Shown here: piece after piece, positions 3,001 to 35,313 of the stretch
How positions within the stretch are numbered: the stretch's first letter is position 1
Layout of the letters: the number at the start of each line of letters is the position of its first letter
Assembly (NCBI GenBank): GCA_002239025.1
Contig: MPNM01000022.1
Coordinates: 1-47,421, forward strand
Source of the DNA: Chloroflexi bacterium bin125
GTDB lineage: Bacteria > Chloroflexota > Dehalococcoidia > Bin125
Direction: 5' to 3'
DNA: 47,421 nt
Made by a program: the position numbers and the translations under genes
The notes under the pieces: model-generated
The model's database searches: none
Told to the model about the DNA's origin: nothing
The model's input: only the letters and a program-made list of their open reading frames with translations

Positions 3001-5159
3001 AGAGCCACACCGATCGCTGGGACCGGGCGCTGCTGGCGCTGGGCGAGACGGTGGCGGACACGTCGCTGACGCCGATGACGACGGCAGAGGCGGAGCAGAT
3101 GGCTGCGCAACACATGGCAACCCGCTGGAACCCCGTGGTCGCGGCGCTGCGGGAGATCGAGGCAGCCGGTCAGCGGCAGACGCCGGCCAACCAGCCGCCA
3201 ACGGTCGCCTCGGCGATCAACGACCTGAGCGGCCTCAAACCCGGCGCGAGGCGCACGGTCTCGCTCTCCGGCGTGTTCAGCGATGCCGACGGCGACGCGC
3301 TGACGATCAGCGCCAGGTCATCGGCGGTCGCGGTGGCGACGGTCAGCGTGGCGGGGAACGGCGCGAGCCTGACCGTCAGCGGCGTCGCTCAGGGCGCGGC
3401 GACGATCACCGTCACGGCCAATGACGGCCGGGGCGGCACGGTCTCCGACCGGTTGACGGTGACGGTCGCCGCCAATGCGCCGCCGACACTGGTCTCGCCG
3501 CTGGGCGACATCAGCGGGCTCAAGCCCGGCGCGACGCGCACGGTCTCGCTCGCGGGCGTCTTCCGCGACCCCAACGGCGACTCGCTGACCCTCACGGCCC
3601 GCTCGACCGACGAGTCGGTGGCGACCGTCGCGGTCGCGGCCGGCGGCGGGAGTCTGACGGTGACCGGCGTGTCCGGCGGCACGGCGACGATCACCGTGAG
3701 CGCCGATGACGGGGACGGCGCGACGGCGCTCGACTCGTTCACGGTCGAGGTCGACTTGGCCAACGCCAAGGCGACCCTCGCGGCGGCCAACGCCGCGCCA
3801 ACCGTGGCGTCCGCGATTGGCGACCTGAACGGGCTCACGCCCGGCGCCACGCGCACGGTCTCGCTCGCGGGCGTCTTCCAGGACGCGGACGGCGACGAGC
3901 TGACGATCACTGCCAAGTCGTCCGCCGCTGCAGTGGCGACGGTCAGCGTCACCTCGGGCGGCGCGAGCCTGACCGTCACGGCGGTGGCCGAGGGCACAGC
4001 GACGATCACGGTCACAGCCGATGACGGCAAGGGCGGCACGGTCTCGGACAGCTTCACGGTGACGGTGGCGGCGGCCAATGCCGTGCCGAGAGTCGCGTCC
4101 GCAATTGGCGACCTGAGCGGGCTCACGCCCGGCGCGACGCGCGCGGTCTCGCTCGCGGGCGTCTTCCAGGACGCCGACGGCGACTCATTGACGATCACTG
4201 CCAAGTCCTCCACCGCTGCGGTGGCGACGGTCAGCGTCGCCTCAGGCGGCGCAAGCCTGACCGTCACGGCGGTGGCCGAGGGCACGGCGACGATCACGGT
4301 CACAGCCAATGACGGCAAGGGCGGCACGGTCTCGGACAGCTTCACCGTGACGGTGGCGGCGGCCAACGCCGCGCCGAGGGTCGCGTCTGCGATTGGCGAC
4401 CTGAGCGGACTGAGGCAGGGCGACACGCGCCAGGTCTTGCTGTTGAACGTCTTCCAGGACGCTGACGGCGACGCGCTGACGTTTAGCGCCAGGTCTTCCA
4501 GCAGCGCCATTGCGAGCGTTGCGTCCGCTAACGCCAGTCTGACGGTCACGGCGGTGGCCGAGGGCACGGCGACGATCACGGTCACAGCCGATGACGGCAA
4601 GGGCGGCACGGTCTCGGACAGCTTCACGGTGATGGTGGCGGCGGCCAAAGACGCGCCCACCGCCGCGCCGAGAGCCGTCAGGTCGATGGACGACGTCAAC
4701 GGGCTGACTGCGGGGACCACGCGGCGCGTGTTGGTGGCCGACCATTTCCGCGACGCGGACAACGACCCGCTGACGCTGACCGCGTCGTCGTCGAACGAAA
4801 CGGTCGTCCGGGTCTCGGTCGACGGCCGGAACTACAGCATGACGCTCAGCGCGGTGTCGGCAGGCACGGCGACGATCACGGTCACGGCCGACGACGGCCA
4901 GGGCGGCAGAGCCAGCGCCAGCTTCAGGGTCACCGTCAACGCAGCGCCGGCGTCCGAGCCCGAGGAGCAGGACTCCGGTCTGGAAGGTGAACCTGAGCAG
5001 CAACTGGTGGTGCAAGACGTGATCACGCGCTACGACACCAACGGCGACGGCGAGATCAGTCTCGACGAGTACAACGCGGCGATCCCGGACTTGGGCACGA
5101 CGCTCTCGTTCGCCGATCTGCTCAAGCTCAGAGCGGCCTTCCAAGCCTCGTCACGCTGA
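3..5159 (+). CDS. Giant secreted multi-repeat adhesin-like protein (5' end missing)
   Basis: The reading frame is open at the left edge, so the true start and any signal peptide lie outside the window; a TTG at 9 is only an internal codon. Numbering from that TTG, residues ~55-158 form a Calx-beta-type domain ending in acidic stretches (DDALDDDDE). Residues ~178-212 hold Asp-rich calcium-loop-like segments (DIDNDGLIE, DLDGNGNPGD). Residues ~340-535 carry at least five GLUG-type repeats (GGLVG...SYS..G). Eight Ig-like repeats follow, interrupted by a helical insert (residues ~975-1050). The C-terminus has a canonical EF-hand/dockerin-like loop (DTNGDGEISLDEY). Such architectures are known from calcium-stabilised surface or secreted adhesins. 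No anchor motif is visible after the EF-hand. The role in adhesion is inferred; the domain assignments are from recognisable motifs. Confidence 0.85.
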   Translation, partial: GGLQVTGSFPTAAAGRHNLAVTYALRDQGSFKAANYSLTQTTGTLQGELTAPPTCAAGLMLFADGVPAEGGAPVTVTVGLSSPAGVGGASVTLTATGTATGDDYTLSSTIVVIAEGATAGTATITVIDDALDDDDETIVLNAALSGSNLTAGPLTLTIADNDPLATPTPVAADGCSVPAGGDYDIDNDGLIEVSCLAQLNAIRWDLDGNGNPGDAEHGWAENSPAYARAFAGSVPGMGCPAGGCQGYELTGDLDFDSNGSGVADAGDTYWNGGRGWIPIGEGLGGFAADFEGNSHVIRNLYVVSLTPAPTAGWSEQSVQDTVEHSAGLFGLLLNSGAIRNLGLEAAYLDTSAYSRRTGAVAGVSDGLISRSYVSGALKGQAAVGALVGFARGKAVIIDSYSSASVEGTLAGMPGGFIGGLVGYSQGDVLGSYSTGVVSGKARSTGGLVGFNDYGSSIVASYKYGNVSSSGWRVGGLLGVNQGRVAASYFAGQVSGGDQVGSVVGHILDHRIMDSYWDTRFTGSGSWGQPTAELQSPSGYAGIYASWNVDLNGDGSPDDPWDFGESDEYPVLKRGIRSVDAQRQGFPANAPPATTAPEPSASLTPSVPSAGQRVNLVASLDLKAAGYDDAILRSMSLPQGVTMDPAFQSGVHSYQLTVPNDVDRLTFAGRFERMKAPGSGEAWSILVVEPGDLTLYELFLSNRGFGKGTPYDGEYVSNYFKRAIVANLQRTAGVHTIALPPDAATVIKIAVYKTRIDDHRGFAPADAGTLARKTVYTLTVTRGDAGAGDAEQSAPTVAAPIANVTGLVVGATRDISLSGVFSDVDSDSLTITAASSDETKATVAVASDYSKLTLTSVAVGTTTITVTAADGNGGTVSDSFTVTVKSAPTVALPIADVTGLVVGATRDISLSGVFSDADGDSLTITAASSDETRATVTVAADDSKLTVAGVAAGTATITVTAEDADGERVSDTFQVAVEKRYAALIAQVVEWRNHPNGVNNQSHTDRWDRALLALGETVADTSLTPMTTAEAEQMAAQHMATRWNPVVAALREIEAAGQRQTPANQPPTVASAINDLSGLKPGARRTVSLSGVFSDADGDALTISARSSAVAVATVSVAGNGASLTVSGVAQGAATITVTANDGRGGTVSDRLTVTVAANAPPTLVSPLGDISGLKPGATRTVSLAGVFRDPNGDSLTLTARSTDESVATVAVAAGGGSLTVTGVSGGTATITVSADDGDGATALDSFTVEVDLANAKATLAAANAAPTVASAIGDLNGLTPGATRTVSLAGVFQDADGDELTITAKSSAAAVATVSVTSGGASLTVTAVAEGTATITVTADDGKGGTVSDSFTVTVAAANAVPRVASAIGDLSGLTPGATRAVSLAGVFQDADGDSLTITAKSSTAAVATVSVASGGASLTVTAVAEGTATITVTANDGKGGTVSDSFTVTVAAANAAPRVASAIGDLSGLRQGDTRQVLLLNVFQDADGDALTFSARSSSSAIASVASANASLTVTAVAEGTATITVTADDGKGGTVSDSFTVMVAAAKDAPTAAPRAVRSMDDVNGLTAGTTRRVLVADHFRDADNDPLTLTASSSNETVVRVSVDGRNYSMTLSAVSAGTATITVTADDGQGGRASASFRVTVNAAPASEPEEQDSGLEGEPEQQLVVQDVITRYDTNGDGEISLDEYNAAIPDLGTTLSFADLLKLRAAFQASSR
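2376..4941 (+). repeat. Eight tandem Ig-like domain repeats within the giant protein
   Basis: Each unit runs roughly P-T/R-V-A-x-x-I-x-D-x-x-G-L ... G-V-F-x-D-x-D-G-D-x-L-T-I ... G-T-A-T-I-T-V-T-A-x-D-G-x-G-G-T-V-S-D-S-F-T-V. Two units precede the helical insert (~2930-3180) and six follow it. Units five to seven (~3790-4640) are nearly identical at the DNA level in their second halves, which points to recent duplication or gene conversion. Units one and two (~2380-2930) form a second closely related pair. Confidence 0.85.
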
Positions 5160-5367: not shown

Positions 5368-7728
5368 TCAGCCGCCGGCGGCCACGAGGCCGGCCTGCTG
5401 CTCACGTTCCAGGGCCCAGTCGAACAGCGACGGCCCCGAGGGTTGCGGGTTGCGCCGTCGAGGCTTCGGTAGTTCGGACCCATCGGCCAGGAACTCGGCC
5501 CAGCTGAACAGGGATTGCTGCTGCTCCCCCTGGCCGTGATGGTTCGCGCAGGGGACCAGTTCGACCACTGGCGCAGCTTCCCCGTCGCTCGGAACAGCCG
5601 GGACCAGCGTCTCCGGTTCCGGAGCCGGCCGCTGCCAATCGGCGTCGACCAGCAGTTGCTCGGCCTGGGCCGCGACCTGCTGCGCCTGGAGGAAGATGTC
5701 CTCGACGGGTGCGTCGTCGGTCTCGCCCGAGACGAGCTTGCGGGCCAGGGCCATCATCAGGTCGTCGCCGGTGTCGCCGTAGGCGGCCAGCCCGTCCTCG
5801 GGCAGGTCGCCCTCGACCGCCAGCGAGGACTGCAGCTTCTGCGCGACCAGCTTGAGCGCGTCGGCCTGCAGCGTGTTCCGATAGGCCAAGAACACGACCT
5901 TGACCGGCTGGGTCTGGCCGATCCGCCAGCTGCGACGCGAGGCCTGGCGCATGGTGTAGACCGAGTAGTCGGTCTCGTACCAGCAGATCGTCGGAAAGGC
6001 GATCAGGTCGAGCCCGGTCTGCACCAGGCGGGGGTGGCAGATGAGGACGTCGATCCCCTCCTTGACCCGCTTGGCGACCCAGGCCTCGCGCTGCTTCGGC
6101 TCAACCCGGTCGGCCTTCATCACCGCTGTCTTGAACCCGTGCCGCGTGAGCAGCGTCTCCAGCCGGCCGGTGATGTCGCGCGTGCCGGTGTGGGTGGCGT
6201 AGACCAGCACTCGCCGTCCGGCCAGGCGCTCTCGTGCGACCAGGTCGAGCAGCTGCTGCTCCTTGGGGTAGATGCGCTCGGCGTCAAGCGGCGGCAGTTG
6301 CACGATCAGGTCGCCGGTGTCCGGGTCGAACACGGACTCGCCCCGGGTGCAGCCCTCGGGATAGGCCAAGAGCGCCTGCAGGTAGGTCGAGAGCAGCCGG
6401 GCCGAACCGCGCTCGATCGCCTGCAGCAGGGCGCGCTTGAGATCGGTGGCGAGGATCCGGTAGGCGGAAGCCTGCGACAGACCGTGGACGCCCTCCTCGG
6501 TGTCCATGCTCGCGACCTGGATCTGTTCCTCGTAGGCGGGCAGTCCCGAAGCCACGTCGGCCAGCCTGAGGAAGAGCGAGTGGCCGATGATGTGGAACAG
6601 CGCCGCCGGCGCCATCCCCGGCCGCTCCTTCGTCTGCTTGCGGTAGTTGCGCCGCCGGGAGACGGAGCCGTCCTCGGTCGGGTCGTCGTCGCGGTCGTGG
6701 CGCACGCGCTGCTCAAGGAAGCCGTAGCGTTCGACCCACTTGTGCTCTTCGGAGCGGCCGAACTCAGACCGGATCTCGGGCGAGAACCGGTAGAGCAGGT
6801 GGAAGAGCGTGGAGGCGTAGCCGCCCATGAGCGTGCCCGAGAGGGCCAGCGACTTGCCGCAGGCGTCGGCCAGGATGCCGGCCGAGACGCCCTGGGCGGA
6901 ACCGCGACCCTTGTGCTCATGAACTTCGTCGACGATCAAGAGGTCGAAGTAGCCGCGCATGTGCTGCTTGACGTAGTCGGCCAGGGGATACTTGCGCGGC
7001 CCTTGACCGGGCCTGCGGCGCGCCATCAGACCGGCGTTGTAATCGGTCGTCACGGTCTGTACCGGTCGCGCCTCCGCCGTCCACAGGGGCGTCCCGCAGT
7101 TGGGACACTGGTGACGCTTCTTGTCCAACTGCTTGTGCGGGACCGGGACGCCTTCGGCATCCACGATCTGCGCGGTGCAGTCGGGGCAGGCCGGGGTCAT
7201 GATGAACTCGCCCGTCTCTTCGTCGCGGACGGGGTTGCCGTCTTCATCCTTGAGCCGGCGCGTCCAGTAGGCGGGACGGAAGCGGTGACCGAGCTTGGCC
7301 CGCGAGTGGGACATGACCACGTACTGGGGGCCGTGGCCCTCCTGGCGGCGCAGTTGCTCCAGGTCGGTGATCGAGTCGGCGATGCCGGTGCGGACCAGCG
7401 GGATCGTGTCCTCGATCTCGCGCTGCCACTTGCCCACCAGGTGTGGCGGACAGAGCACGAGCACGCGGCGGAAGCCGGCCAGCTGGGCGGCGGCGATGGC
7501 GATGAACGTCTTGCCCACGCCCATCTCGCCGACCACGGTCGTGCCGCGCTGCTCGCTCAGGCTCAGCGCGGCGCCGCGGATCGCGGTCTCCTGGGCGCCC
7601 ATCGGCCGGCGCTTGAGCTGGGGCATGGGTCGGTCGTCCGCGGCCGGGCGGTAACGGGGTGGGTAGCTGTGGACGATCCGCTTCGTGATCGCCTCGCGGT
7701 AGGTGTCGATGAACTCTGAGAGGTTCAC
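5368..7728 (-). CDS. SNF2/superfamily-2 DNA helicase-like ATPase with inserted zinc ribbon
   Basis: The 786-aa product has all core SF2 motifs: Walker A GEMGVGKT (67-74), Walker B DEVH (267-270), motif III LSGTLMGG (296-303), motif V VQTGLDL, and motif VI QASRRSWRIGQ, the SNF2-type arginine-finger signature. Between motifs Ia and II lie two Cys pairs, CPDC (181-184) and CPNC (208-211), which predict a zinc ribbon. The C-terminal ~150 residues are Gln/Glu/Pro-rich linker. The GTG start at 7728 is chosen because GAGGAG sits 5 nt upstream and the preceding gene stops 2 nt before it. It is the last gene of the long leftward cluster. By family it is an ATP-driven dsDNA translocase; a role in replication or recombination of the element is inferred from its neighbours. 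Confidence 0.85.
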   Translation of the reverse strand: MNLSEFIDTYREAITKRIVHSYPPRYRPAADDRPMPQLKRRPMGAQETAIRGAALSLSEQRGTTVVGEMGVGKTFIAIAAAQLAGFRRVLVLCPPHLVGKWQREIEDTIPLVRTGIADSITDLEQLRRQEGHGPQYVVMSHSRAKLGHRFRPAYWTRRLKDEDGNPVRDEETGEFIMTPACPDCTAQIVDAEGVPVPHKQLDKKRHQCPNCGTPLWTAEARPVQTVTTDYNAGLMARRRPGQGPRKYPLADYVKQHMRGYFDLLIVDEVHEHKGRGSAQGVSAGILADACGKSLALSGTLMGGYASTLFHLLYRFSPEIRSEFGRSEEHKWVERYGFLEQRVRHDRDDDPTEDGSVSRRRNYRKQTKERPGMAPAALFHIIGHSLFLRLADVASGLPAYEEQIQVASMDTEEGVHGLSQASAYRILATDLKRALLQAIERGSARLLSTYLQALLAYPEGCTRGESVFDPDTGDLIVQLPPLDAERIYPKEQQLLDLVARERLAGRRVLVYATHTGTRDITGRLETLLTRHGFKTAVMKADRVEPKQREAWVAKRVKEGIDVLICHPRLVQTGLDLIAFPTICWYETDYSVYTMRQASRRSWRIGQTQPVKVVFLAYRNTLQADALKLVAQKLQSSLAVEGDLPEDGLAAYGDTGDDLMMALARKLVSGETDDAPVEDIFLQAQQVAAQAEQLLVDADWQRPAPEPETLVPAVPSDGEAAPVVELVPCANHHGQGEQQQSLFSWAEFLADGSELPKPRRRNPQPSGPSLFDWALEREQQAGLVAAGG

Positions 7729-7730
7729 GG

Positions 7731-7916
7731 TTACTCCTCGATGTGGGCCCGGGCGTTCTGGACGCATTCGGGCAGTCGTTCGTACTGGTCTCGGTGCAGA
7801 CCGCAGCGGCACCACCAGCTGTAGCTACGGCCGGCGGTCTGGTTGCCGTGGTGGTCGATGGCGACGAGTTCCTCGAAGAAGATCTCGCAGCCGCGGTCGT
7901 TGCTCCAAAGGTTCAT
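7731..7916 (-). CDS. Small Cys-containing protein, tandem paralogue 1
   Basis: This 61-aa acidic protein has a CxC pair (WWCRCGLHRDQY) and a further Cys in ECVQNARAHIEE. It aligns end to end with the next gene upstream (7923-8111): both begin MNxWxNDxGC, share H-G-x-x-T/Q in the middle and end in A-R-x-H-I-E-E. The pair looks like a tandem duplication. The ATG at 7916 is preceded by a GAGGAG-type site inside the end of its paralogue. Its stop lies 2 nt before the helicase start, so the two are probably co-translated. The spaced Cys residues suggest a small zinc-binding fold, but no family is recognised. Confidence 0.7.
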   Translation of the reverse strand: MNLWSNDRGCEIFFEELVAIDHHGNQTAGRSYSWWCRCGLHRDQYERLPECVQNARAHIEE

Positions 7917-9059: not shown

Positions 9060-10088
9060 CTACGCCTCGATCCGTTCGATCCGGCCCGAGTCGAGGTCGA
9101 GCGTGACCACGCTGGTGTGCAGCTGCTCGCGGTAGACGTCGTGCGTCTCGCCCTCCTCGACCAGGACCATTTCCTTGGTCGTGCGCCCCTTGGCCAGGAC
9201 GCGCGATTCGGGAGTTTCCAGTTCGAGGTTGTCGAGGAAGCCGGCCGCGACGAGCATGGCCAGATGGCCCTTACGCAAGGGCATCAAGGGGCGTGTCGAG
9301 CGGTCGGTCGGCGGCCAGAATGCGTCCGTGATCTCGTCCTGGGTCCAGAGCCCGCGCTTGCGCGCCTCGGCGACCGCTTTCGAGAAGTCGATCACCCGGG
9401 TCGTGAACATCACCGGACCCGGCGCCGACATCCCGACGTCGTACTCGGGCCGCAGGTCGTGATGCAGCGGTTCCAGCCCGTCGACGCCCGCGACCAGGTC
9501 GGCCATCGCCCGCGCGTCGGGCCGCGGTTGCGGCTTGCGCACGCCCATGACGACAACCTGGTCGAACTGCTCGCGCTCGGGCTCAGGAAAGGTCCAGACC
9601 CGGACGCGCCGGTAGTTGGTCGTCAGGAACCGTGCCGAGGTCGCGATCTGAGGTCGCGGGATGATGTAGACCAGCAGCCCGTCGGGCTCCAGGTAGCGCG
9701 AGCAGTGGGTGAGGAACGCGTGCTCGACCCGCTTGTCCTCGCGGTCGTGGTCGTAGGGCGGGTTGAGCCAGAGCAGGTTGAACGCACGGTTGGCGATCGA
9801 GCAGCGGAAGAGGTCGCTGGAGAGCGCGTGGTCGAGCCGCTCGGCAGCCTCCTGCGCGCGCGCGGCGTGCAGTTCCACCCCGTAGGTCTCGTTCGGGACG
9901 TGGCGGTTCATCGACCCCGCCAACTGCGACAGGGCGTCGCCCGGACCGCAGCAGGGGTCGAGCAAGCGGACGATGTCGTCGCGCTGGCGGCCGTAGCGGA
10001 TCGGCGCCATCAAGAGCGAGCGGATGTAGTCGACCACGCGCGGCGGCGTCGGGTAGTAGCCGCCCTTCAGTTGTCCGGCGAGTCTCAT
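9060..10088 (-). CDS. DNA N6-adenine-type methyltransferase-like protein (DUF6094-like)
   Basis: The 342-aa product begins with a Gly-rich YYPTPPRVVDYI segment typical of adenine methyltransferases. It has a SAM-binding motif I, DPCCGPGDAL (~44-53), and the catalytic motif IV NPPYD (~113-117). The C-terminal half resembles the helical/β extension of DUF6094-type enzymes found on mobile elements. By family it would methylate adenine in DNA using S-adenosylmethionine. No endonuclease partner is adjacent, so it is probably an orphan enzyme serving element maintenance or anti-restriction (inference). The ATG at 10088 overlaps the stop of the 59-aa gene (ATGA) and has GAAAGGA upstream. Confidence 0.85.
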   Translation of the reverse strand: MRLAGQLKGGYYPTPPRVVDYIRSLLMAPIRYGRQRDDIVRLLDPCCGPGDALSQLAGSMNRHVPNETYGVELHAARAQEAAERLDHALSSDLFRCSIANRAFNLLWLNPPYDHDREDKRVEHAFLTHCSRYLEPDGLLVYIIPRPQIATSARFLTTNYRRVRVWTFPEPEREQFDQVVVMGVRKPQPRPDARAMADLVAGVDGLEPLHHDLRPEYDVGMSAPGPVMFTTRVIDFSKAVAEARKRGLWTQDEITDAFWPPTDRSTRPLMPLRKGHLAMLVAAGFLDNLELETPESRVLAKGRTTKEMVLVEEGETHDVYREQLHTSVVTLDLDSGRIERIEA

Positions 10089-10264: not shown

Positions 10265-10452
10265 GGGTGCTCCTCCTGGTACTGCTCAAGCAGGTTGAGC
10301 AGGTGGTCGTGGATGTCCTCGTGGACGCCCTCCTCGATCTGCGAGCCGTCTTCTTCGAGGTCGAAGTTGTAGATCGCGGTGATCTCTTCGCCGGCGATGT
10401 CGTCCTCTCCCGCTCGGGTCTCGACCGTGACGGTCACGTAGCGGTGGCTCAT
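10261..10452 (-). CDS. Small acidic hypothetical protein
   Basis: The 63-aa product starts with a β-strand-rich half (RYVTVTVETRAG) and ends in a strongly acidic helix (GVHEDIHDHLLNLLEQYQEE). GGAGG lies just upstream of its ATG at 10452. It overlaps its neighbours on both sides by ATGA junctions, so three consecutive genes (230-aa, 63-aa, 59-aa) and the methyltransferase form one translationally coupled block. Function unknown. Confidence 0.7.
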   Translation of the reverse strand: MSHRYVTVTVETRAGEDDIAGEEITAIYNFDLEEDGSQIEEGVHEDIHDHLLNLLEQYQEEHP

Positions 10453-11141
10453 GCCGATCCTCCGTTCAATTCGCGCGGCAGCTTGAGCGCGCCGTATTTG
10501 ACGGCCGCCGAGAGCTCGGTCTCTAGTAGCTGCGGGTCGTGGTAGCAGGCCCAGGCGTTGAGGCCGACCGACTTGAGCGGGCGGATCGCCTCGTTCTCCA
10601 GCCCCTGCTGCCAGAGCCAGTCGGCCCAGCTGTGGTGCAGCGGCAGCTCGCTGCGCTGGTTGAGGAAGCGCAGGTGCTGGGCCGGCGCTGCCGAAGCGTC
10701 CGGAGTCAAGAGCAAGAAGGCGTCGCGCTCAAACGAGAGCTCCGCCATCTGCGTGTAGACCATCGCGTGATGAGCGCCTGATTGCGGCAGCCTGGCGATC
10801 TTGGTCTTCCATGTGCCGATGCTGTGCTCCGGGATCTGGCAGCGCTCGTAGCCGCCCTCGTGCAGGTCGTCCACGGCGCCTTTGATCAGGAAGGCCGGGC
10901 TGGGCGGCGAGTTGAGCAGCGCCGCCCAGATCGCCTTGAGCGAGGTCTGGGCGCCGACCATCGAGACGAACCAGAGCTGGTTCTGTTCGGGGTCGGCGGC
11001 GAACGCGTCGCAGGTGGCTGAGAAGCCGCCCGCCGTGATCGTGTAGAGCTGAGTGGCCTGCCCCGGACTTGATCCGGCGGCCTGCCCCGCACTTGATGCG
11101 GGGTCGTCTCCCGAAGGAGGCGTGGTTGGGGTGTCGAGCAT
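10449..11141 (-). CDS. Conserved-looking hypothetical protein of the recombination cluster
   Basis: The 230-aa product starts at ATG 11141, which has AAAGGA 7 nt upstream; an ATG at 11156 would place that site inside the gene. After a low-complexity Ser/Pro/Gln N-terminus (~30 residues, encoded by two palindromic repeats) it is an ordered α/β protein with many aromatic residues (NQLWFVSMVGAQTS, HHSWADWLWQQG). No motif of a known enzyme family is visible. It lies directly downstream of radC and is coupled to the 63-aa gene. A role in handling element DNA is a guess from context only. Confidence 0.65.
   Translation of the reverse strand: MLDTPTTPPSGDDPASSAGQAAGSSPGQATQLYTITAGGFSATCDAFAADPEQNQLWFVSMVGAQTSLKAIWAALLNSPPSPAFLIKGAVDDLHEGGYERCQIPEHSIGTWKTKIARLPQSGAHHAMVYTQMAELSFERDAFLLLTPDASAAPAQHLRFLNQRSELPLHHSWADWLWQQGLENEAIRPLKSVGLNAWACYHDPQLLETELSAAVKYGALKLPRELNGGSA
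11063..11103. repeat. Two REP-like palindromes inside a gene
   Basis: CCGGA-CTTGA-TCCGG (11063-11077) and CCCCGC-ACTTGAT-GCGGGG (11085-11103) are adjacent palindromes sharing the core CCTGCCCCG(G/C)ACTTGAT. They encode the low-complexity N-terminal segment of the 230-aa protein. A related, nested palindrome lies at 14518-14557. This resembles short palindromic repeat insertion. Confidence 0.6.
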
Positions 11142-11183: not shown

Positions 11184-11702
11184 TCAGTCGATCAGGCCCT
11201 GGCCTTTGAGCGAGACCCAGCCATCGGAGCCGATCACGACGTGGTCCAGGAGTTCAATCCCGAGCAGGTTCCCAACCTCGACCAGGTCCTTGGTCAGCTG
11301 GATGTCCTCGCGGCTCGGTTCCGGGTCGCCTGAGGGGTGGTTATGCACCACGACGATGTGCGGGACGGCCTCGATCACAGCCGGTCGGAAGACCTCGGCC
11401 GGGCGCACCAGGGCGGCGTAGCCGTTGCCCTGATAGATCGTGCGCTGGCCGACGACGCGGTTCTTGCGGTCCAGGAGCAGCACCCGGACCTGTTCCTGGG
11501 CGAGCTCGGACATCTCATCCGAGAGCATGTCGACCACGGTCTCGGGCCGGAAGATGGTGGGCATGTCCTCGGGTCGCTCGGGCTTGGTCTCGACCTCGTA
11601 GCGGATCGCGAGTTCGCCCAGCAGGTTGAGGTTCTGGCGCAGGGCGTCGAGCAGGGCCTGCTGTTCGGGCTTGGCGGAGGTGGGTTCGGTCTGGGTGGTC
11701 AT
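11184..11702 (-). CDS. radC: RadC-like JAB/MPN domain protein
   Basis: The 172-aa product carries the complete JAMM metal-binding signature: HNHPSGDPEPSREDIQ supplies the two His and the downstream Asp, with a Glu earlier in the domain. It lacks the N-terminal helix-hairpin-helix of chromosomal RadC, as is usual for copies carried by mobile elements. The N-terminus is a coiled, acidic segment. GAAAGGA precedes the ATG at 11702. The family is metal-dependent by structure, but the biological role of RadC is unsettled. Association with SSB, Rad52 and exonuclease genes supports a role in plasmid or element DNA metabolism. Confidence 0.9.
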   Translation of the reverse strand: MTTQTEPTSAKPEQQALLDALRQNLNLLGELAIRYEVETKPERPEDMPTIFRPETVVDMLSDEMSELAQEQVRVLLLDRKNRVVGQRTIYQGNGYAALVRPAEVFRPAVIEAVPHIVVVHNHPSGDPEPSREDIQLTKDLVEVGNLLGIELLDHVVIGSDGWVSLKGQGLID

Positions 11703-11835: not shown

Positions 11836-12210
11836 CTAGAAGGGCTGGTCGCCGCCGTTGCCGTTGCGGCGACCGTTGCCATTGCCATTTCGCGAATCGA
11901 GGAAGACGACCTCGTTCGCGTGTACCTCGGTCGTCTGACGGCGCTGACCGTCCTGGTCTTCCCAGTCGTCGTAGCCGAGCCGACCCGAGGCGTAGATCCG
12001 GTCGCCCTTGCGGACGTATTCGGCGACCGCCTCGGCGGTCTTGCCCCAGCAGACGAGGTTGTGCCAGTCGGTCTGGCTCTCGCCCGACCCGTTGCGGCGG
12101 TCGGTCGCCAGCCGCAGGCGGCAGACGGCCGTGCCGCTCTTGGTCTGGCGCAGTTCGGGGTCGGTCCCGACTCGGCCCAGCAGTTCGATGCGGTTGATCG
12201 TGCGTGACAT
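11836..12210 (-). CDS. ssb: Single-stranded DNA-binding protein
   Basis: The 124-aa product starts at ATG 12210 with GAAAGGAG upstream; a longer in-frame extension to 12336 reads through a hairpin and is not credible. The OB-fold is clear: MSRTINRIELLGRVGTDPEL at the N-terminus, then TDWHNLVCWGK, YVRKGDRIYASGRL, and a VVFLDSR strand. A short Gly/Asn-rich linker leads to the tip GGDQPF, matching the conserved C-terminal D-x-P-F partner-binding motif. It coats ssDNA during replication and recombination of this element and probably recruits the neighbouring exonuclease, Rad52-like protein and primase. Confidence 0.93.
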   Translation of the reverse strand: MSRTINRIELLGRVGTDPELRQTKSGTAVCRLRLATDRRNGSGESQTDWHNLVCWGKTAEAVAEYVRKGDRIYASGRLGYDDWEDQDGQRRQTTEVHANEVVFLDSRNGNGNGRRNGNGGDQPF

Positions 12211-12272
12211 TCGTCGTGCTCCTTTCAGAGAGCGTGAGGCGGCGCGGACTGCCCGCGCCTGTTGAAATGGGG

Positions 12273-12352: not shown

Positions 12353-13417
12353 TCAGCTGACCCGGAGGTACTCCGAGGTCTGTTCGGTCACGATCTCGGC
12401 CCGCTGTTCGGGTTCGAGCAGCGCGTTGAGCCGCTTGTGGTCGACCGAGTAGCGGCGGCTCGTGACCATGCCCACGGTGCGGGCCTTGGCCGAGCCCTCC
12501 AGCCTGGCTTTGGTTTCTCCTTTCCCTGTGAGCCAGTGCTGGAGGGTCTTGAGCGCTCCGCGCTTGTCGGCGTCGAGCGACTTCAGCTGCTGCTGGATGC
12601 GCTCGTACTCGTGCAGCGCCGCCTGCGCATCGTCATCGGAGACGGGATCAACCGGCTCGGCCTCGGCCTCTTCAGAGGCCTCAATCGCCTCGCCAGGCTG
12701 GCAGACGTTGAGGTAGGGACAGCGCTGGCACTGCCAGTCGGAGGGCCCGAAGTCGCGTTCCGGCAGGGCCTCAGGGTCGGGGCCGCATGTCCGGTAGCGG
12801 TCGGCCAGCGGCGCCAGCCGCTCGCAGGCGCGGTCCCAGGCTCGCTCGACGCGGCCGGCGGGGATCACTTCGTAGTCCCAGCGCCGCGAGCCGGTGTCGA
12901 GCGTCGCGATCACCGTCTCGCGGAAGTCGCCGTAGAGTCCGAGCGTGTAACAGGCCGCCTGGGCGACCGACTCGGGGTGGCTGCGCTCCGCGCCCAGCGT
13001 CTGCCAGCGCTTGAACGCTTCGGGGCCGCGCGTCTTGACCTCGATCACCGACTCGTCGCCGAACAGCTCGATCGCGCCGGTCGCGTCCGGATGTCCGGTC
13101 ACAGTCAGTCCCGGTACGGCCTCGACTTCGACCCGCAGCGGCGCGTCGGGGTCAGCCGGAGTGACTGTCCAGAATCGGCGCTGCATGGCGCGGACGACGA
13201 CCGGTTCGAGCGCCTGTCCGGCCTCGAGCACCAGCTTGGTCTCGTCCGTCATTGGGTTGGTCACTTCCTGGCCCGTGGCCGCGTACCAGAGAGCGCGGCG
13301 GCATTGGCCCAGGGCCGAGGCGCGGACTTCGAGCCGCTCGTCCTCGGTGAACCGCGCCGCCGGGCGGTCGAACACGCGAGAGCGACTCGGGGTCAGGGGT
13401 GGGTTGCTAAGGGTCAT
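12353..13417 (-). CDS. PD-(D/E)XK (RecB/Cas4-like) nuclease with Fe-S cluster ligands
   Basis: The 354-aa product has the full RecB-family active site: GHPD (Asp111), EVKT (Glu126, Lys128) and a Gln at ~153 in QAACYTLGL. One Cys near the N-terminus (LGQCRRALWYA, Cys39) and three near residues 230-239 (CQRCPYLNVC) match the Cas4/AddB arrangement for a 4Fe-4S cluster. After the core there is a Glu-rich linker and a helical C-terminal domain. By family it is a metal-dependent ssDNA or dsDNA-end exonuclease. Next to a Rad52-like annealing protein and SSB it would make the 3' tails used for single-strand annealing. GAAAGGA lies upstream of the ATG. Confidence 0.87.
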   Translation of the reverse strand: MTLSNPPLTPSRSRVFDRPAARFTEDERLEVRASALGQCRRALWYAATGQEVTNPMTDETKLVLEAGQALEPVVVRAMQRRFWTVTPADPDAPLRVEVEAVPGLTVTGHPDATGAIELFGDESVIEVKTRGPEAFKRWQTLGAERSHPESVAQAACYTLGLYGDFRETVIATLDTGSRRWDYEVIPAGRVERAWDRACERLAPLADRYRTCGPDPEALPERDFGPSDWQCQRCPYLNVCQPGEAIEASEEAEAEPVDPVSDDDAQAALHEYERIQQQLKSLDADKRGALKTLQHWLTGKGETKARLEGSAKARTVGMVTSRRYSVDHKRLNALLEPEQRAEIVTEQTSEYLRVS

Positions 13418-13511: not shown

Positions 13512-14438
13512 TCAGCCCTGTTGCGACCGCTGCCGCTGTTCGAGTTTCTCGGCGGCGGAGGCGATCAGCGGGTTGATCGCGTCGGGACCCAGGTCATCCA
13601 GCGGGCGACCGGTCTTCGCCTCGACCGCTGAGCGGACCTGCGCCTCGGAGAAGCCCTGCTGCGTGCTCAACTCGATCAGTTGCGCGCGCAGGTTCGCGGC
13701 GTCGCGCTCATCGACGCTGGCTGATTCGGCCGTCGGCTGAACGACCCGGCGTCGCGGTTGCGGCTCGCTACGGCGTTCGGGTTGCGGCTGCTGGCGCGAC
13801 TCTGGGGCCGGTCCTGGTGGTCGGCTGTTGCGGGTGCTTGTCGGCGGATCGCCATAGAGGCCGTTGCCGAAGCGATCGCCGAAGCTGCGCAGGGCGCGCT
13901 TGAGCGCGTCGGTCACGGCGCCCTTGAACGCCGTCTCGTGGCCGTCGGCGGACTCGTCGGTGACCGCCTGGAAGCCGACGTCGGTGCGCGAGGGCGCGCC
14001 CGGCACAGTGACCTTGACGATCGCCGAGTAGGCGGTGCTGCTCGTGACCTCGCCGCTGCGCGAGTCCATGGACTCGATCTGGCGCAGGGTCACGTCGCCG
14101 ACCAGTTCGTAGCCCCAGCCGCCGAATCCGAAGATCCGGTTGGCCTGATCAATAGCCGTGTGGCCCTCGATGTAGTCGAACTTGCGCCCGCCGCGGCCCT
14201 TGCGCTGCGAGACCAGCCGCGGGTCGAGCGTTTGCCCCAGCGCCTCCGTGACGACCGGAGCTAGCGCGTCCCAGTGCAGCGCCTCCGGCGCCGTCGGCGC
14301 GGAGACCGTCTGCGGGGCGAAGTGCGGGCGCGCTCCGTTGCCCCCCGTTCGGGCCGGGGGCAGGCTGTTGCCGTTGCCGTTGCTGCTGCCGTTGCTGCGA
14401 ACCGCTGTCGCGGTTCCGTTGCCGTTGCTGCTGCTCAT
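13512..14438 (-). CDS. Rad52/Rad22-family single-strand annealing protein
   Basis: The 308-aa product has an Asn/Gly/Ser-rich N-terminus (~45 residues), then the Rad52-type annealing domain (~55-200). That domain includes RKFDYIEGHTAIDQANRIFG, FGGWGYEL, and the closing segment KGAVTDALKRALRSFGDRFG followed by NGLYGD. A disordered Pro/Gln/Arg linker and a helical C-terminal domain follow. Rad52-family proteins form rings that anneal complementary ssDNA coated by SSB. With the adjacent exonuclease and SSB it makes a phage-Red-like recombination set. AAGGAG precedes the ATG at 14438. Confidence 0.9.
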   Translation of the reverse strand: MSSSNGNGTATAVRSNGSSNGNGNSLPPARTGGNGARPHFAPQTVSAPTAPEALHWDALAPVVTEALGQTLDPRLVSQRKGRGGRKFDYIEGHTAIDQANRIFGFGGWGYELVGDVTLRQIESMDSRSGEVTSSTAYSAIVKVTVPGAPSRTDVGFQAVTDESADGHETAFKGAVTDALKRALRSFGDRFGNGLYGDPPTSTRNSRPPGPAPESRQQPQPERRSEPQPRRRVVQPTAESASVDERDAANLRAQLIELSTQQGFSEAQVRSAVEAKTGRPLDDLGPDAINPLIASAAEKLEQRQRSQQG

Positions 14439-14479
14439 TTCGTGCTCCTTGTTCAGTGGTGTTCGTGGTTGTTGGGTGC

Positions 14480-14557
14480 GGTTGCCAGTGACGGCAACCG
14501 TGCGCCGTGCCGCCTGTCCCGCACTTGCCTGCCCCTGGCTTGACCAGGGGATGCGGG
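14480..14557. terminator. Hairpins upstream of rad52-like gene, including REP-like palindrome
   Basis: GGTTGCC-AGTGAC-GGCAACC (14480-14499) is followed by a nested palindrome: CCCGCA...TGCGGG outside (14518-14557) and CCCCTGG-CTTGA-CCAGGGG inside (14532-14550). The second resembles the palindromes at 11063-11103. Together they separate the primase gene (stop 14655) from the Rad52-like gene (start 14438). Confidence 0.55.
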
Positions 14558-14654
14558 GCCGGCACGGTCAGCTAGAGGCCATAGGCAGGCCCTCCGTTTC
14601 ATTGACTTGGGGAGTTGGGTGGTAGCGGGACGGGTCCCGCTGGGAATGTCGTCG

Positions 14655-15698
14655 CTAGCGAGCGGCGGTTGCCGCCAGCCGGAGTTGGTCGAGGAGGACG
14701 GCGCGGCCGTCCGGGCGAGCGCCCAGCTCGCCCACGTCGGAGACGCCCCGAGGCAGGTTCACGATCGCGGCCCGGCGAGCGCCGAGCAGTCCGGCGAGCT
14801 CGTCTGCCGCGGCGCGTCCGGCCTCATCGGCGTCGAAGGCGAGGAAGACGCGCGGTCGCCCCTGTAGGGCGGAAGCCAGCTTGTCCATTCCCTGCGTGCC
14901 AAGCGCTGCGCAGGCCGGCAGGCCCCATGTCGTCAGCAGGAGCCAGTCGAACAGGCCTTCGGCGACGACGATCCAAGGGGCCTGGCAGTCCAGCCGGCGC
15001 AGGCCGAGCACCGGTTTGGGGCCGGGCAGAGCCTGGAACCTGGGGCTGACCTCGGGCCAGATCGATCGCCCGGCGAGCCAGTGGACTCGTTCCCCAATCA
15101 GTTCGGGGACGACGATCATGCCGCCGAAGCGCTCACGCCGCTCCCGGACGAGGCCGCTGCGCAGGATCCGTTCGTCATCGAACCCGGCCTGCTTGAGCCA
15201 ATCGCGCAGCCCGTGGCCGCTGGCGTAGCCCAGCCCCAGGCGTCGTGCGGTCGCGAGGCTGATCCCACGTCCGGCGAGGTACGCCTGGGCGGCCTGGCTG
15301 AGCTGCAGCTGGCGCTGGTAGCAGCGCATCGCCGCCGTCAACAGGGTTGGGTCACAGATCGGCGCACGTGGTTGCGCGCTCGCGTCTCGGAGGGGAGGGT
15401 CCGGCATCGTTGCAACCACGGGCGAGGAATCGAGGCTGCGAATCGCCTCGGGCAGGCTGAGCCGCTCCGAGCGCTGAATGAAGTCCAGGACGTCTCCGCC
15501 CAGGCCGCAGCCGAAGCAGTAGAACCGCTGCGTGTCGGCGTAGACCGTGAAGCTGCCTTCGGTTTCCTCATGGAAGGGGCAGACGCCCTGGCGGACCCGA
15601 CCTCGGCCGCGCAACTGAACGCCGGCTGCCTCGACCACGCCGCCCAGAGGGTGACGCGCCTTGAGCGCGGGAATGTCGATAGTGCTGCTCAGAGTCAT
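14655..15698 (-). CDS. Short DnaG-type primase (CHC2 zinc finger + TOPRIM)
   Basis: The 347-aa product starts at ATG 15698, which overlaps the previous gene's stop (ATGA). An N-terminal CHC2 zinc finger (Cys40, His43, Cys61, Cys64; CPFHEETEGSF ... FYCFGCGLGGD) is followed by the RNA-polymerase core with RFGGMIVVPEL. The TOPRIM metal residues are Glu247 (VVAEG) and Asp289/Asp291 (FDADEAGR). It ends soon after TOPRIM and lacks the C-terminal DnaB-binding domain of chromosomal DnaG (~600 aa), which fits a mobile-element primase. It would synthesise primers for the element's own replication. A frameshifted copy of its first ~70 residues lies at 29171-29377. Confidence 0.9.
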   Translation of the reverse strand: MTLSSTIDIPALKARHPLGGVVEAAGVQLRGRGRVRQGVCPFHEETEGSFTVYADTQRFYCFGCGLGGDVLDFIQRSERLSLPEAIRSLDSSPVVATMPDPPLRDASAQPRAPICDPTLLTAAMRCYQRQLQLSQAAQAYLAGRGISLATARRLGLGYASGHGLRDWLKQAGFDDERILRSGLVRERRERFGGMIVVPELIGERVHWLAGRSIWPEVSPRFQALPGPKPVLGLRRLDCQAPWIVVAEGLFDWLLLTTWGLPACAALGTQGMDKLASALQGRPRVFLAFDADEAGRAAADELAGLLGARRAAIVNLPRGVSDVGELGARPDGRAVLLDQLRLAATAAR

Positions 15699-16144
15699 GA
15701 CGCACCGCCTTTGGACAGCGGTTTGAGCCCTCTGAGGCTGCGCTGCGAGACGACCTTGCCGTGATGCCAGCGCATGCCCAGGACGGCTCGAACTTCCAGC
15801 GTCCCGTCGTCGCTTGGGGTCAGGACGGCGGCGCGCCCGATGCCAGGGTTGTAGAGCTGTGCCCGCGCGTCGCCGATGTGACGACGCGCCAGGCCGAGGA
15901 ACTCCGCGTAGGCCCAGCGCCGTTCGCCCTCGGTTGCACTGCTCAAGTCGATGTCGGCGAAGACGGCAAGCGCGCCGTCGAGCTCTCCCGCGCGTCCGAG
16001 TCGTCGCGCTTCGTGAATCACCCGGGCCGGGGAGGTTGCAGGCTGCGCCGGTTCGTCCAGGCCGAAGATGGCGTCGATCAGTCGGTCGACCAGTTCCTCC
16101 AGCGTGGGCCGGGGAGCGGTCGAGGTGGTGATTGCGGCAGTCAT
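15695..16144 (-). CDS. Hypothetical protein coupled to primase (intact copy 1)
   Basis: The 149-aa product starts at ATG 16144 with GGAG 8 nt upstream. It is helical in its first 90 residues (RPTLEELVDRLIDAIFG, then ARRLGRAGELDGALAVFADI, resembling a TPR-type helical pair). It ends in a small β-rich, basic domain (GTLEVRAVLGMRW ... SQRSLRGLKPL). No enzyme motif is seen. Its stop overlaps the primase ATG, and the same pair with the same overlap occurs at 29374-29814, so the two are a conserved functional unit. A primase-partner or regulatory role is inferred from this linkage. Confidence 0.75.
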   Translation of the reverse strand: MTAAITTSTAPRPTLEELVDRLIDAIFGLDEPAQPATSPARVIHEARRLGRAGELDGALAVFADIDLSSATEGERRWAYAEFLGLARRHIGDARAQLYNPGIGRAAVLTPSDDGTLEVRAVLGMRWHHGKVVSQRSLRGLKPLSKGGAS

Positions 16145-16271: not shown

Positions 16272-16829
16272 TCAGCGGCGACGGGCGGCGCGGGTGAGCG
16301 CGGCCAGGCGGCCAAGCACAATCCGATGCGCGAGCCAGCCGGTCCAACCGAGGCCGAAGGCGTTCAGCGCGACGACTTGGAGGTCGTAGCCGATCGCGAC
16401 AGGGGCCGCCAGCAAGAGCAGCAGGAACGGCAGCAAGACGACCCGCCAGGAGCGTCCGCCCGCTGCCTGCGCCGCTGGCATTGCTTGCGTCGTGGAACTC
16501 GGGGATTGTGGTGTCTGCGTGTCCTCAGCGCGGTAAGCCGACCAGATCGACTCGCCGCACTGAGTCTCCAGCCATCGGATGAGCCGCTCCCGTGAGCAGC
16601 CCGCCGATGTGCAGCGGACGTCGATTCCGTCGCCGTCCGGCCGTTGACGTAAGGCAAGCAGGTCCTGGTCCGATCCGTGACAGGCGGCCGCGGTCCAGAA
16701 CCAGCCGCGCTCGAAGCGCACCCGCTGGTGGGGCGCGATCAGTTCGGCGATCCGCGCGGCCGTCGGGCCGATGTAGCGCCCTCTCGTTCTCGTTCTGTTC
16801 GATCCGTTCGTCTCGTTCGTGTCCCTCAT
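16272..16829 (-). CDS. Membrane-anchored primase-like zinc-ribbon protein
   Basis: The 185-aa product starts at ATG 16829 with GAAAGGAG upstream and is the first gene of the cluster. Residues ~20-100 resemble the N-terminal zinc domain of phage/plasmid primases: WFWTAAACHGSDQ, then DGDGIDVRCTSAGCSRERL giving a C-H-x(n)-C-x4-C ligand set, followed by the helix typical after that knuckle and CGESIWSAYRAED. A Ser/Thr/Pro linker leads to a strongly hydrophobic segment (~133-153, PFLLLLLAAP) and a second, weaker one (~158-176), ending in Arg-rich residues. No polymerase or TOPRIM part follows. A zinc knuckle tied to the membrane is unusual. A role in tethering element DNA or RNA to the membrane is speculation. 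Confidence 0.75.
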   Translation of the reverse strand: MRDTNETNGSNRTRTRGRYIGPTAARIAELIAPHQRVRFERGWFWTAAACHGSDQDLLALRQRPDGDGIDVRCTSAGCSRERLIRWLETQCGESIWSAYRAEDTQTPQSPSSTTQAMPAAQAAGGRSWRVVLLPFLLLLLAAPVAIGYDLQVVALNAFGLGWTGWLAHRIVLGRLAALTRAARRR

Positions 16830-28586: not shown

Positions 28587-29171
28587 CTAGATCGCCAGCG
28601 GGGCGTTCTGGTAGGTCGGCACGCCGACTTCGTTGAAGATCTCGTTGATTGCGCTGCGGATTTCTTCGTTCAGCTTCCAGTCGGTGGCCGCGACGTTCTC
28701 CTCGAGCTCTCGCTCGTTTCTCATGCCGACGAGCGCACACCACGCAGCGGGATGGTCAAGCACCCACGCGAGGGCCAGTTGCGCCACGGATTTGCCGTAA
28801 CCGTCGGCCAGCTCGACCAAGCGGTTGGTCGCTTCGACTTCCTTGCGGAAGTGCTCCTCCTGGAAGACCGGCAAGTTGAACGCCATGCCGCTGCGACGCC
28901 TGTCGCGTTCCTCGAACGTGGTCTTGGGTGTGAAGGCTCCGGTCAGCAGACCGAACCCGAGTGACCCGTTGGCCATGCACCAGGGCAGCACGCGCGACTC
29001 CATGCGACGGTCGTACATGTTGTAGCCGACCTGGTTGGCGGCGATGTGCCCGTACTGCTCGCACTCTTCCATCATGTCAACATTGAAGTTCGAGACACCA
29101 TAGTGGCGAATCTTACTGCTCTGTTTGAGCTCTTCCGCACCGTCCATCGTTTCCTCGATCGCCGTGTCATG
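28587..29171 (-). pseudogene. Aldo/keto reductase, N-terminal half deleted
   Basis: The frame encodes the C-terminal ~195 residues of an aldo/keto reductase: TAIEETMDGAEELK, IRHYGVSNFNVDMMEE, then a NADPH-binding end with LAWVLDHPAAWCALVGMRNE. The catalytic Asp, Tyr, Lys and His, all in the missing N-terminal half, are gone. The frame joins primase sequence at ~29171. An inactive relic, although the remaining part is free of stops. Confidence 0.8.
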
Positions 29172-29377
29172 GCCGCCCAGGCCGCAGCCGAAGCAGTAGA
29201 ACCGCTGGGTGCGGCGTAGACGGTGAAGCTACCCTCGGTCTCATCGTGGAAGGGGCACTTGCCCTGGCGCACGCGACCCCGGCCGCGCAGCTTGACACCA
29301 AAGGCCTCGACTACGTCCCGGAGTGGGTAAAGGCGCTTGAGCGCAGGAATGTCGACCGACGCCCTTCGAGTGGTCAT
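29171..29377 (-). pseudogene. Primase N-terminal fragment, frameshifted and truncated (copy 2)
   Basis: From ATG 29377 it matches the first ~54 residues of the primase at 14655-15698, including the CPFHDETEGSFTVYA half of the zinc finger. Near 29213 one base is missing relative to copy 1 (CTGGGTGCGGCG against CTGCGTGTCGGCG), which shifts the frame before the second Cys pair. DNA similarity continues to the second Cys pair and stops at ~29171, where aldo/keto reductase sequence begins. RNA-polymerase core and TOPRIM are absent. Confidence 0.85.
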
Positions 29378-29814
29378 GACGCACCGCCCTTGCCCAACGG
29401 CTTGAGCCCTCTGAGGCTGCGGCGCGAGACGCGCTTGCCCCGGTGCCAGCGCATGCCCAAGACGGCCCGGACTTCGAGCGTCCCGTCAGCTTGCGGGGTG
29501 AGGACGGCAGAATGGCCCGTGGTCGGGCTGTAGCTGAACATTTGCTCATCGCGGAACCGGCGCCGGGCCAGGTCGAGGAACACGGCGTAGGCCCAACGCC
29601 GTTCGCCCTCGGTGGCGCTGAAGAGTTCCAGTCCGGCGAACACTGAGAGCGCCGCGTCGAGATCCCCGGACTGTCTCAGGCATCGGGCCTCGTGAATCCC
29701 CCGCGCGAGCGAAGCACGGGGTGGTGTAGTTGCGTCGTCTTCGAAGACGGCGTCGATGATGCGGTCGACCAGTTCTTCCAGCGTGGGCCGGGTCGCGGTC
29801 GCGGTTGCAGTCAT
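29374..29814 (-). CDS. Hypothetical protein, duplicate of the 149-aa primase neighbour
   Basis: This 146-aa product aligns throughout with the 15695-16144 protein (RPTLEELVDRIIDAVF, SATEGERRWAYA, GTLEVRAVLGMRW, LRGLKPLGKGGAS) with moderate divergence. The frame is intact and keeps the ATGA overlap with the broken primase copy and a good upstream AAGGAG (AAAGGAGACCTCATG). It is the only gene of the duplicated segment without an obvious lesion, so it may be recent chance survival or still useful. Confidence 0.7.
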   Translation of the reverse strand: MTATATATRPTLEELVDRIIDAVFEDDATTPPRASLARGIHEARCLRQSGDLDAALSVFAGLELFSATEGERRWAYAVFLDLARRRFRDEQMFSYSPTTGHSAVLTPQADGTLEVRAVLGMRWHRGKRVSRRSLRGLKPLGKGGAS

Positions 29815-29910
29815 GAGGTCTCCTTTCCCTGTCGACGTGCGACTGCGGCTTAACGAAGAAAGGCCGCCCCGGGAGGCGGCTCTTGCATGTGGATGGATGG
29901 GGATGAACGG

Positions 29911-30468
29911 TCAGGTGCGGCGACCGGCGCGTGCGACCAAGACGAGGCGGCCGAGCACGATCCGATGCGCGAGCCAGCTGGCCCAACCGAGGCCGAAGAC
30001 GTTCAGCGCCACGACCTGTAGGTCGTAGCCGAGGACCGGCGGTACGGCCAGCAGGAGGATGACGAAGGGCGCCAGGACAACCCGCCAGGAGCGACCGCCT
30101 GCTTGCTTCGTCACCGGCGCCGCCTCCGAATCGGAGCTCGGGGATGGTGCAGCCGGCACATCCTAGGCGCGGTAGGCCGACCAGATCGACTCGCCTGCCG
30201 TCGTCTCCAACCAGCGGTTGACCCGCTCGCGCGAGCAGCCCGCCGACATACAGCGGACGTCGATCCCGTCGCCATCGGGCCGCTGGCGGAAGCCCAGCAG
30301 GTCCTGCTCCGATCCGTGGCAGGCGGCCGCCGTCCAGAACCAGCCGAGCTCGAAGCGCACCCGTTGCCGGGGCGCAATCAGTTCGGCGATGCGGGCGGCT
30401 GTGGGGCCGACGTACCGCCATCTCGTTCTCACTCTGTTCGTCTCGTTCCTGTCGTTCTTCTCCCTCAT
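29911..30468 (-). pseudogene. Copy 2 of the membrane-anchored zinc protein, nonsense mutation
   Basis: Same layout as 16272-16829: zinc-ribbon part (FWTAAACHGSEQ, DVRCMSAGCSRER, GESIWSAYRA), linker and hydrophobic C-terminus. At 30163-30165 the GAG following YRA in copy 1 is TAG here, a single-base nonsense change; the frame continues cleanly after it. Two shorter peptides could be made (zinc part alone, and the membrane part from an internal ATG at 30159). GAGGAGCTCACG precedes the ATG at 30468. Confidence 0.8.
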
Positions 30469-34637: not shown

Positions 34638-35063
34638 TCAACCGGTGGCGTCACCGAAGTCCAACAGCTTGCGCAGGTCCTGCCGCAATGAACCCGCGTG
34701 TTCCGCGACCAGTCGCTCGAGCTGTGCGCCGTCAATCAGCTCGATCCGCGGGAAGCCGGTCTGCACGGCTACCTGCTTCGCGTCTGGGCTGAACGCGCTG
34801 GTGGTCACGAACAGACCATGTCCCCCAGTTGGAATCGCACTGCGCAACTGTTGCAGCATCGCCGGTCCGATGATCCCGGTCGCGCGGTAACGCTTGACCT
34901 GAACGAACAGCTGGAGTTCGGCCAAGCCGGCAGCGTTGAGCTTGGCACGGACTTCGCCGCCGCCGTCACCGGACTTGCCTGTTCTCCGCACCGCGGCGCA
35001 GCCCATTGCCTTGAGCAGCGCCGCCACCAGTCGTTCGCTTTGCGGCGCATCAAGTTCCAACAT
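34638..35063 (-). CDS. Mrr-like restriction endonuclease domain protein
   Basis: The 141-aa product (ATG 35063; a TTG at 35117 would add 18 atypical residues) is a stand-alone Mrr_cat domain: SERLVAALLKAMGC, RTGKSGDGGGEVRAKL, FVQVKRY, GHGLFVTTSAFS, IELIDGAQLERL. The PD-(D/E)XK site is recognisable as GGGE...QVK. The usual catalytic Asp of GGxD is Glu here, with the Q-x-K pair kept. Mrr enzymes cut methylated foreign DNA. There is no cognate methyltransferase next door, which is normal for methylation-dependent enzymes. Activity with Glu is uncertain. Confidence 0.8.
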   Translation of the reverse strand: MLELDAPQSERLVAALLKAMGCAAVRRTGKSGDGGGEVRAKLNAAGLAELQLFVQVKRYRATGIIGPAMLQQLRSAIPTGGHGLFVTTSAFSPDAKQVAVQTGFPRIELIDGAQLERLVAEHAGSLRQDLRKLLDFGDATG

Positions 35064-35313
35064 TCGGCGGATGAGCGTGCGCGGGCACGGCTGAGTCACC
35101 CTCCGCCGGCTGGCCAACTACGTTTGATCCGCTTGTTCGGACCGGCAACACCGCAAGGTCACGCGTGTCCGGACGCTGCCGAGCGATGGGGGGGGCGCAC
35201 TGATCACCAGGTCGATGGGTTCGGCGCGTCCAGAATCCACCCCATGTCGCAATGGGCCGCCCATGTGGGAGGCTGGACGGCGAGCGGTCGCAGTGACTGC
35301 GGGTGGACTGCTG

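Follow-up and report, generated by a model that had tools for sequence, protein, structure and literature searches.

The window, by which is meant the whole stretch of 47,421 nucleotides analyzed here (Chloroflexi bacterium bin125, contig MPNM01000022.1), carries at positions 16272-16829 of the minus strand a gene for a 185-residue protein in which a zinc domain that is likely, although not proven, to be homologous to the zinc ribbons of primases is followed by a linker and a predicted membrane hairpin. This zinc-domain/membrane-hairpin protein, given here the working name ZnTM, is a new arrangement of a known kind of domain, and its description adds a family without a name in the libraries searched, from the poorly studied mobile elements of Chloroflexota. 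The explanation that best accounts for it, which we put forward tentatively and at somewhat less than even odds, is that ZnTM tethers the single-stranded DNA (ssDNA) or the primase of its element at the membrane during conjugative establishment or replication.

The ZnTM reading frame, with its ATG at 16829 and its stop at 16272, is kept in 25 aligned homologues. Residues 1-17 form an N-terminal tail and residues 18-99 (16533-16778; this and all other features of ZnTM, its operon and their second copies lie on the minus strand) form the primase-type zinc domain. When this domain was modeled alone with AlphaFold (pLDDT 84, pTM 0.76), the predicted order was a helix, two strands, C50-H51, two strands ending at C73, C78 and a helix at residues 80-91, giving the topology alpha-beta-beta-CH-beta-beta-C-x4-C-alpha. 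The sequence-only reading had described a C-H...C-x4-C pattern with a following helix, and the alignment and the model bear this out: the putative zinc ligands C50 and H51 (codons at 16677-16682), C73 (16611-16613) and C78 (16596-16598) are invariant in 25 of 25 members, and a search for homologues without the Cys/His set found none among those aligned. Also invariant across the 25 members are W43, T46 and the stretch R61-Q-R-P-D-G66.

Residues 100-126 (16452-16532) constitute a variable and likely disordered linker (pLDDT below 50). The one or two transmembrane segments that had been expected beyond it were found in residues 128-185, a part of the protein that is conserved. The first, residues 128-146 (16392-16448), is strongly hydrophobic, with a Kyte-Doolittle peak of 2.1-3.0 in all members, and is a helix in the model. 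The second, residues 150-168 (16326-16382; Kyte-Doolittle 1.1-2.2), is weaker in the ZnTM of the window and clear in distant homologues (1.8-2.2), and is followed by a basic C-terminal tail with six to eight lysines plus arginines. The predicted hairpin and the basic end are both kept in 25 of 25 members. Hydropathy and helices thus predict that ZnTM is an integral membrane protein, and positive-inside reasoning applied to the hairpin predicts that both the zinc domain and the basic tail lie on the cytoplasmic side. The zinc domain itself shows no net positive charge, and since it is about neutral by count, nucleic-acid binding is not obvious from its composition. No catalytic TOPRIM or AEP domain is present in ZnTM, only the linker and the hairpin coming after the zinc domain, which rules out that ZnTM is itself a primase. 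No match was obtained in an Rfam search of the window or in a search for sigma-70 promoters and terminators around the ZnTM gene.

The relation of the zinc domain to primases was analyzed in two hhalign comparisons, one with the zinc finger of the linked DnaG-like primase and the other with 14 N-terminal zinc ribbons of phage and plasmid primases gathered using an unrelated seed. Against the 14 ribbons the ZnTM domain gave a probability of 91% and a score of 35.9, with H51, C73 and C78 (three of the four ligands) and the following helix in register. None of 100 column shuffles of the profile reached this score (maximum 21.3), nor did any of 100 shuffles in which the four ligand columns were fixed (maximum 17.5), and the reversed profile scored 12.4. 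The probability stayed at 85-92% when any one sequence was dropped. As a positive control, the same 14 ribbons matched the linked CHC2 primase finger, an accepted relation, at 92.6%. These results agree with the primase-like nature first attributed to the domain. The comparison with the finger of the linked primase gave 13.5% in the wrong register, ruling out that ZnTM is a simple copy of that finger. The spacing of the ZnTM ligands, C-x0-H and C-x4-C, differs from the C-x2-H ... C-x2-3-C of CHC2-like ribbons. In 2 of the 25 members, L004 (about 1753-2022, minus strand) and L039 (10007-10282), some eight residues are inserted between the last two cysteines, and the Singulisphaera plasmid primase, a known element primase, likewise has an insertion between its last two cysteines.

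A fold search of the domain model agreed only weakly with this assignment. Foldseek ranked the DnaG zinc domain 1d0q first of 350,542 PDB chains, but the match was not significant (E 0.18). Among the matches listed by a second aligner, VIA-align, were other alpha-beta folds at Z of about 5 (KA1, the OGG1 N-domain and frataxin), whose resemblance to the predicted domain may go no further than a shared alpha-beta arrangement. Neither the full ZnTM model nor the domain gave a significant match in the fold searches. Because a profile match that withstands its controls is accompanied by weak agreement from the fold search, the homology is graded as likely and not as proven. ZnTM had no match in Pfam, NCBIfam, PHROGs or PADLOC, and its profile had none among PDB sequences; Pfam and NCBIfam returned no family at E 1, PF01807 included, and a Pfam scan of all ZnTM members returned no zinc-finger family even at E 10. 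In the literature covered by a limited search, no protein turned up in which a primase-type zinc domain is tethered to the membrane. Libraries and literature, within the limits of these searches, are in agreement with the earlier statement that no described system has this layout.

ZnTM had been read as the first gene of a cluster that also contains a complete primase, and this gene order was found throughout. At every ZnTM locus the next gene encodes a 144-aa partner and, where the contig reaches, a CHC2/TOPRIM primase comes after it. In the window the partner gene (15695-16129) has no match in Pfam, NCBIfam, PHROG or PADLOC, and the primase (14655-15698) is complete and DnaG-like, with a CHC2 zinc finger and a TOPRIM domain (PF01807, PF13155 and PF08275 on the close copy L008). 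On contigs of sufficient length the order then continues with a Rad52-family annealing protein (13512-14438; PF04098, E 4.1e-30), a PD-(D/E)XK, Cas4-like exonuclease (12353-13417; PF12705, phrog_1990), a single-strand DNA-binding protein (SSB; 11836-12213; PF00436), of which relatives have one to three copies, a RadC-like JAB protein (11184-11702; PF04002), a conserved protein of about 217 aa (10449-11102; no Pfam, NCBIfam, PHROG or PADLOC match), a DUF6094 methyltransferase (9060-10088; PF19587) and a helicase (5368-7815; PF00271, PF04851, phrog_62), which marks the downstream end of the conserved module. The survey of homologues showed that the linkage to primase and Rad52 genes is kept.

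Some variation was observed around this order. Three tandem SSB genes (13745-15214) are present in a single operon copy, L008, and one or two in the other copies. Distant elements encode a longer protein whose C-terminal part corresponds to the 144-aa partner; in L087, L089 and L091-L094, from distant Chloroflexota, this longer version is coiled-coil-like and of about 335-349 aa, and in L090-L094 a UvrD-like helicase lies between the longer partner and the primase. Elsewhere the window encodes a protein of 1716 aa (9-5159) in which Ig/cadherin-like repeats are numerous and whose gene is strongly repetitive at the DNA level, and it carries two candidate defence genes, one Mrr-like (34638-35117; PADLOC PDC-S02, E 3.8e-41) and one GmrSD-like (43112-45175; PADLOC HEC-05, E 4.7e-43).

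Since a zinc domain with a membrane anchor always opens a replication/repair cluster, a membrane tether for ssDNA or primase is suggested. According to this explanation the zinc domain, as a primase-ribbon homologue, would face the cytoplasm at the membrane, joined by the flexible linker to the two-helix hairpin, and ZnTM would hold there either the ssDNA of the element or, in trans, the TOPRIM primase that the element encodes. The point at which the T-strand enters the recipient, or the site of element replication, could thereby become the place where priming begins, together with coating by SSB and annealing by Rad52. At first reading such a module had been suggested to locate replication or to sense incoming ssDNA, roles that are hypothetical. 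Whereas the conserved ligands, the profile relation to primase ribbons, the predicted hairpin, the fixed place in the operon and the T4SS genes of relatives are observations, we infer zinc binding, the topology, the binding of ssDNA or primase and the tethering role. Zinc domains of DnaG-type primases share in the binding of template DNA, and primase subunits can act in trans and cross-talk (PMC6163395 and work cited there). A precedent for the proposed role is p16.7 of phi29, a small membrane protein that organises phage replication by bringing ssDNA and, via the terminal protein, the replication machinery to the membrane (PMC4974454). Counting against the tether are the neutral composition of the zinc domain, its ligand spacing, the lack of family, PDB-sequence or significant Foldseek matches, the negative comparison with the linked finger, the elements that do without ZnTM and the operons in which copies cut short of the membrane part persist.

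In a bolder form of the tether explanation, ZnTM would be a primase zinc-recognition domain that a conjugative element has made into a membrane-bound subunit of its own. By capturing the T-strand at the membrane of the recipient and switching on, in trans, the primase of the same element, it would link the entry of DNA with synthesis of the second strand; we consider this form rather doubtful. To our knowledge it is poorly defined, beyond a few model plasmids, how incoming ssDNA is converted to duplex in conjugation and whether the membrane is the site. A conserved primase-type zinc domain tethered to the membrane, with its gene always heading a replication/repair operon, would be a tangible component that can be tested.

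In many relatives a divergent cluster upstream of the operon encodes a TraC/VirB4-like ATPase, type IV secretion system (T4SS) pilins and a TrbL/VirB6 protein, and the ZnTM copies of the source genome on C19 and C41 are also accompanied by the divergent T4SS cluster. Several relatives also have a replication-relaxation protein. Because the operon is often divergent from T4SS genes in relatives, the ZnTM elements are ICE-like; no T4SS genes of the window's own element were found within the window. Exclusion, regulatory and defence roles of ZnTM are less probable than the tether. A small predicted membrane protein encoded beside T4SS genes could be an entry-exclusion or transfer-control protein, whose cytoplasmic domain would block or regulate incoming copies or the T4SS channel, and both the presence of several diverged ZnTM copies in one genome and the fast evolution of the linker are consistent with such a role. 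We nevertheless regard it as unlikely, given that ZnTM heads a replication/repair operon and not a T4SS operon and that its most conserved part is the primase-related zinc domain, whereas the specificity region of an exclusion protein would be expected to be variable. The coexistence of five intact copies in one genome also argues against exclusion, although exclusion groups could differ.

The position of ZnTM as first gene of the operon, together with a 279-aa DNA-binding-like protein encoded upstream of it in many relatives, could point to a membrane-bound regulator of the operon, for example an autorepressor or a zinc-binding anti-sigma-like factor. The anti-sigma zinc pattern is HxxxCxxC, whereas the ligand pattern and the profile match of ZnTM are those of primase ribbons, and the named or annotated genes of the operon include no sigma factor. 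A regulatory role is therefore, in our judgement, quite improbable.

The distribution of ZnTM is narrow. A genome scan detected 18 loci, all in Chloroflexota/Dehalococcoidia MAGs, and since some of these loci look like repeat genomes, about a dozen other genomes are estimated to carry ZnTM. Few genomes in the phylum samples have it, with strong matches in 4 of 400. Searches of viral contigs and of phage and plasmid collections yielded no relatives, and in the samples searched no genome had ZnTM outside its own element family. Weak matches from wider genome searches were short or contained stops, and the one examined, L054, was a chance match. This confinement, in the samples searched, bears on a possible defence or abortive-infection function, in which the zinc domain would sense phage or other foreign ssDNA and the hairpin would damage the membrane. 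A zinc domain joined to a two-helix membrane part does resemble the general layout of sensor-effector proteins. Besides being restricted to its own element family, ZnTM is always part of the core replication operon and never cargo, and PADLOC, which holds described or candidate systems only, gave no model at E 1 for the ZnTM of the window or for the distant member L043. There is thus only a slim chance that ZnTM is a defence effector.

Related elements without ZnTM were also found. More distant Chloroflexota elements keep the order of primase and Rad52 genes, with the longer partner protein, and lack ZnTM, and the close element L095 has the operon with no ZnTM remnant. Because such elements exist, ZnTM is a clade-specific accessory and not a core component, and it is not essential.

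The source genome contains six ZnTM copies, five intact and one broken, four of them on contigs other than that of the window; the other five are 74-84% identical to the window copy analyzed here. The broken copy (29917-30468; 74% identical) is also in the window and is interrupted by an in-frame TAG (30163-30165) directly behind the zinc domain. Next to it are a second copy of the 144-aa neighbour gene (29374-29814; 68% identity) and remnant fragments of a second primase copy (29133-29377), and the region 29133-30468 is a second, decaying copy of the operon start, as expected from the duplication of ZnTM with its neighbours recognized at first reading. L035 and L037, two elements of another MAG, likewise have an in-frame stop at this codon (TAA, 2348-2350). 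In all three copies the frame past the stop stays open through the membrane part. L035 and L037 have most of the operon in an otherwise intact-looking state, despite ZnTM being cut off before the membrane part. The repeated stop apparently has two independent origins; programmed read-through was considered, the dN/dS downstream of the stop being uninformative. A 21-base sequence, GATGGTGTGACTGGGTGGATG, was observed upstream of ZnTM copies at 16942, 21498 and 30581 in the window, 11338 in L007, 9110 in L008 and 9075 in L010. It recurs in the source genome, is absent from the relatives checked and is a possible regulatory or transfer site.

ZnTM homologues down to 40% identity retain the frame and the ligands. 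Pairwise dN/dS, determined for the parts of ZnTM by a simple Nei-Gojobori count, lay mostly at 0.07-0.35 for the zinc domain, with a single pair close to 0.5. In most pairs the membrane part gave about 0.2-0.5, a few pairs coming near 0.9 to 1.0, and the linker gave about 0.25-0.8. The persistence of frame and ligands to 40% identity and the low dN/dS of the zinc domain indicate that ZnTM is more than a product of chance. That ZnTM is a degenerate by-product, a primase zinc domain captured beside a membrane segment and with little function, could be argued from the broken copy in the window, truncated copies elsewhere and the related elements without ZnTM, but is very hard to reconcile with purifying selection on the zinc domain (weaker on the membrane part in most pairs) and with ligands that persist at 40-60% identity.

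The tether explanation can be set beside the closest known systems. The zinc ribbons of phage and plasmid primase-helicases (phiC31 gp9a, Salinibacter phage M8CR30-2 and actinophage primase/helicases) have, like ZnTM, CHCC-type ligands, three of them in register, and a final cysteine followed by a helix. They differ in that ZnTM has the C-x0-H and C-x4-C spacings and the additional invariant W43, T46 and RQRPDG, and in that its ribbon is followed by a linker and a membrane hairpin instead of a catalytic or helicase domain. The DnaG CHC2 zinc-binding domain (PF01807; 1d0q) has a predicted topology similar to that of ZnTM, but ZnTM lacks a Pfam match, and the hhalign probability against the linked primase and the Foldseek E-value are those given above. 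A likeness of another kind is offered by phi29 p16.7 (PMC4974454, PMC11476376), also a small, element-encoded protein that puts a nucleic-acid-binding domain at the membrane, as is proposed for ZnTM. The two are likened by role and not by homology, p16.7 serving a protein-primed phage and ZnTM a conjugative element. As far as we know, p16.7 is not a zinc-domain protein. In operon content and T4SS neighbourhood, ZnTM loci resemble the modules (primase, SSB, annealase, exonuclease and RadC) that serve establishment or the processing of single strands in ICEs and conjugative plasmids; unlike these modules in the literature searched, the ZnTM operon opens with a primase-type zinc domain that is predicted to be tethered to the membrane.
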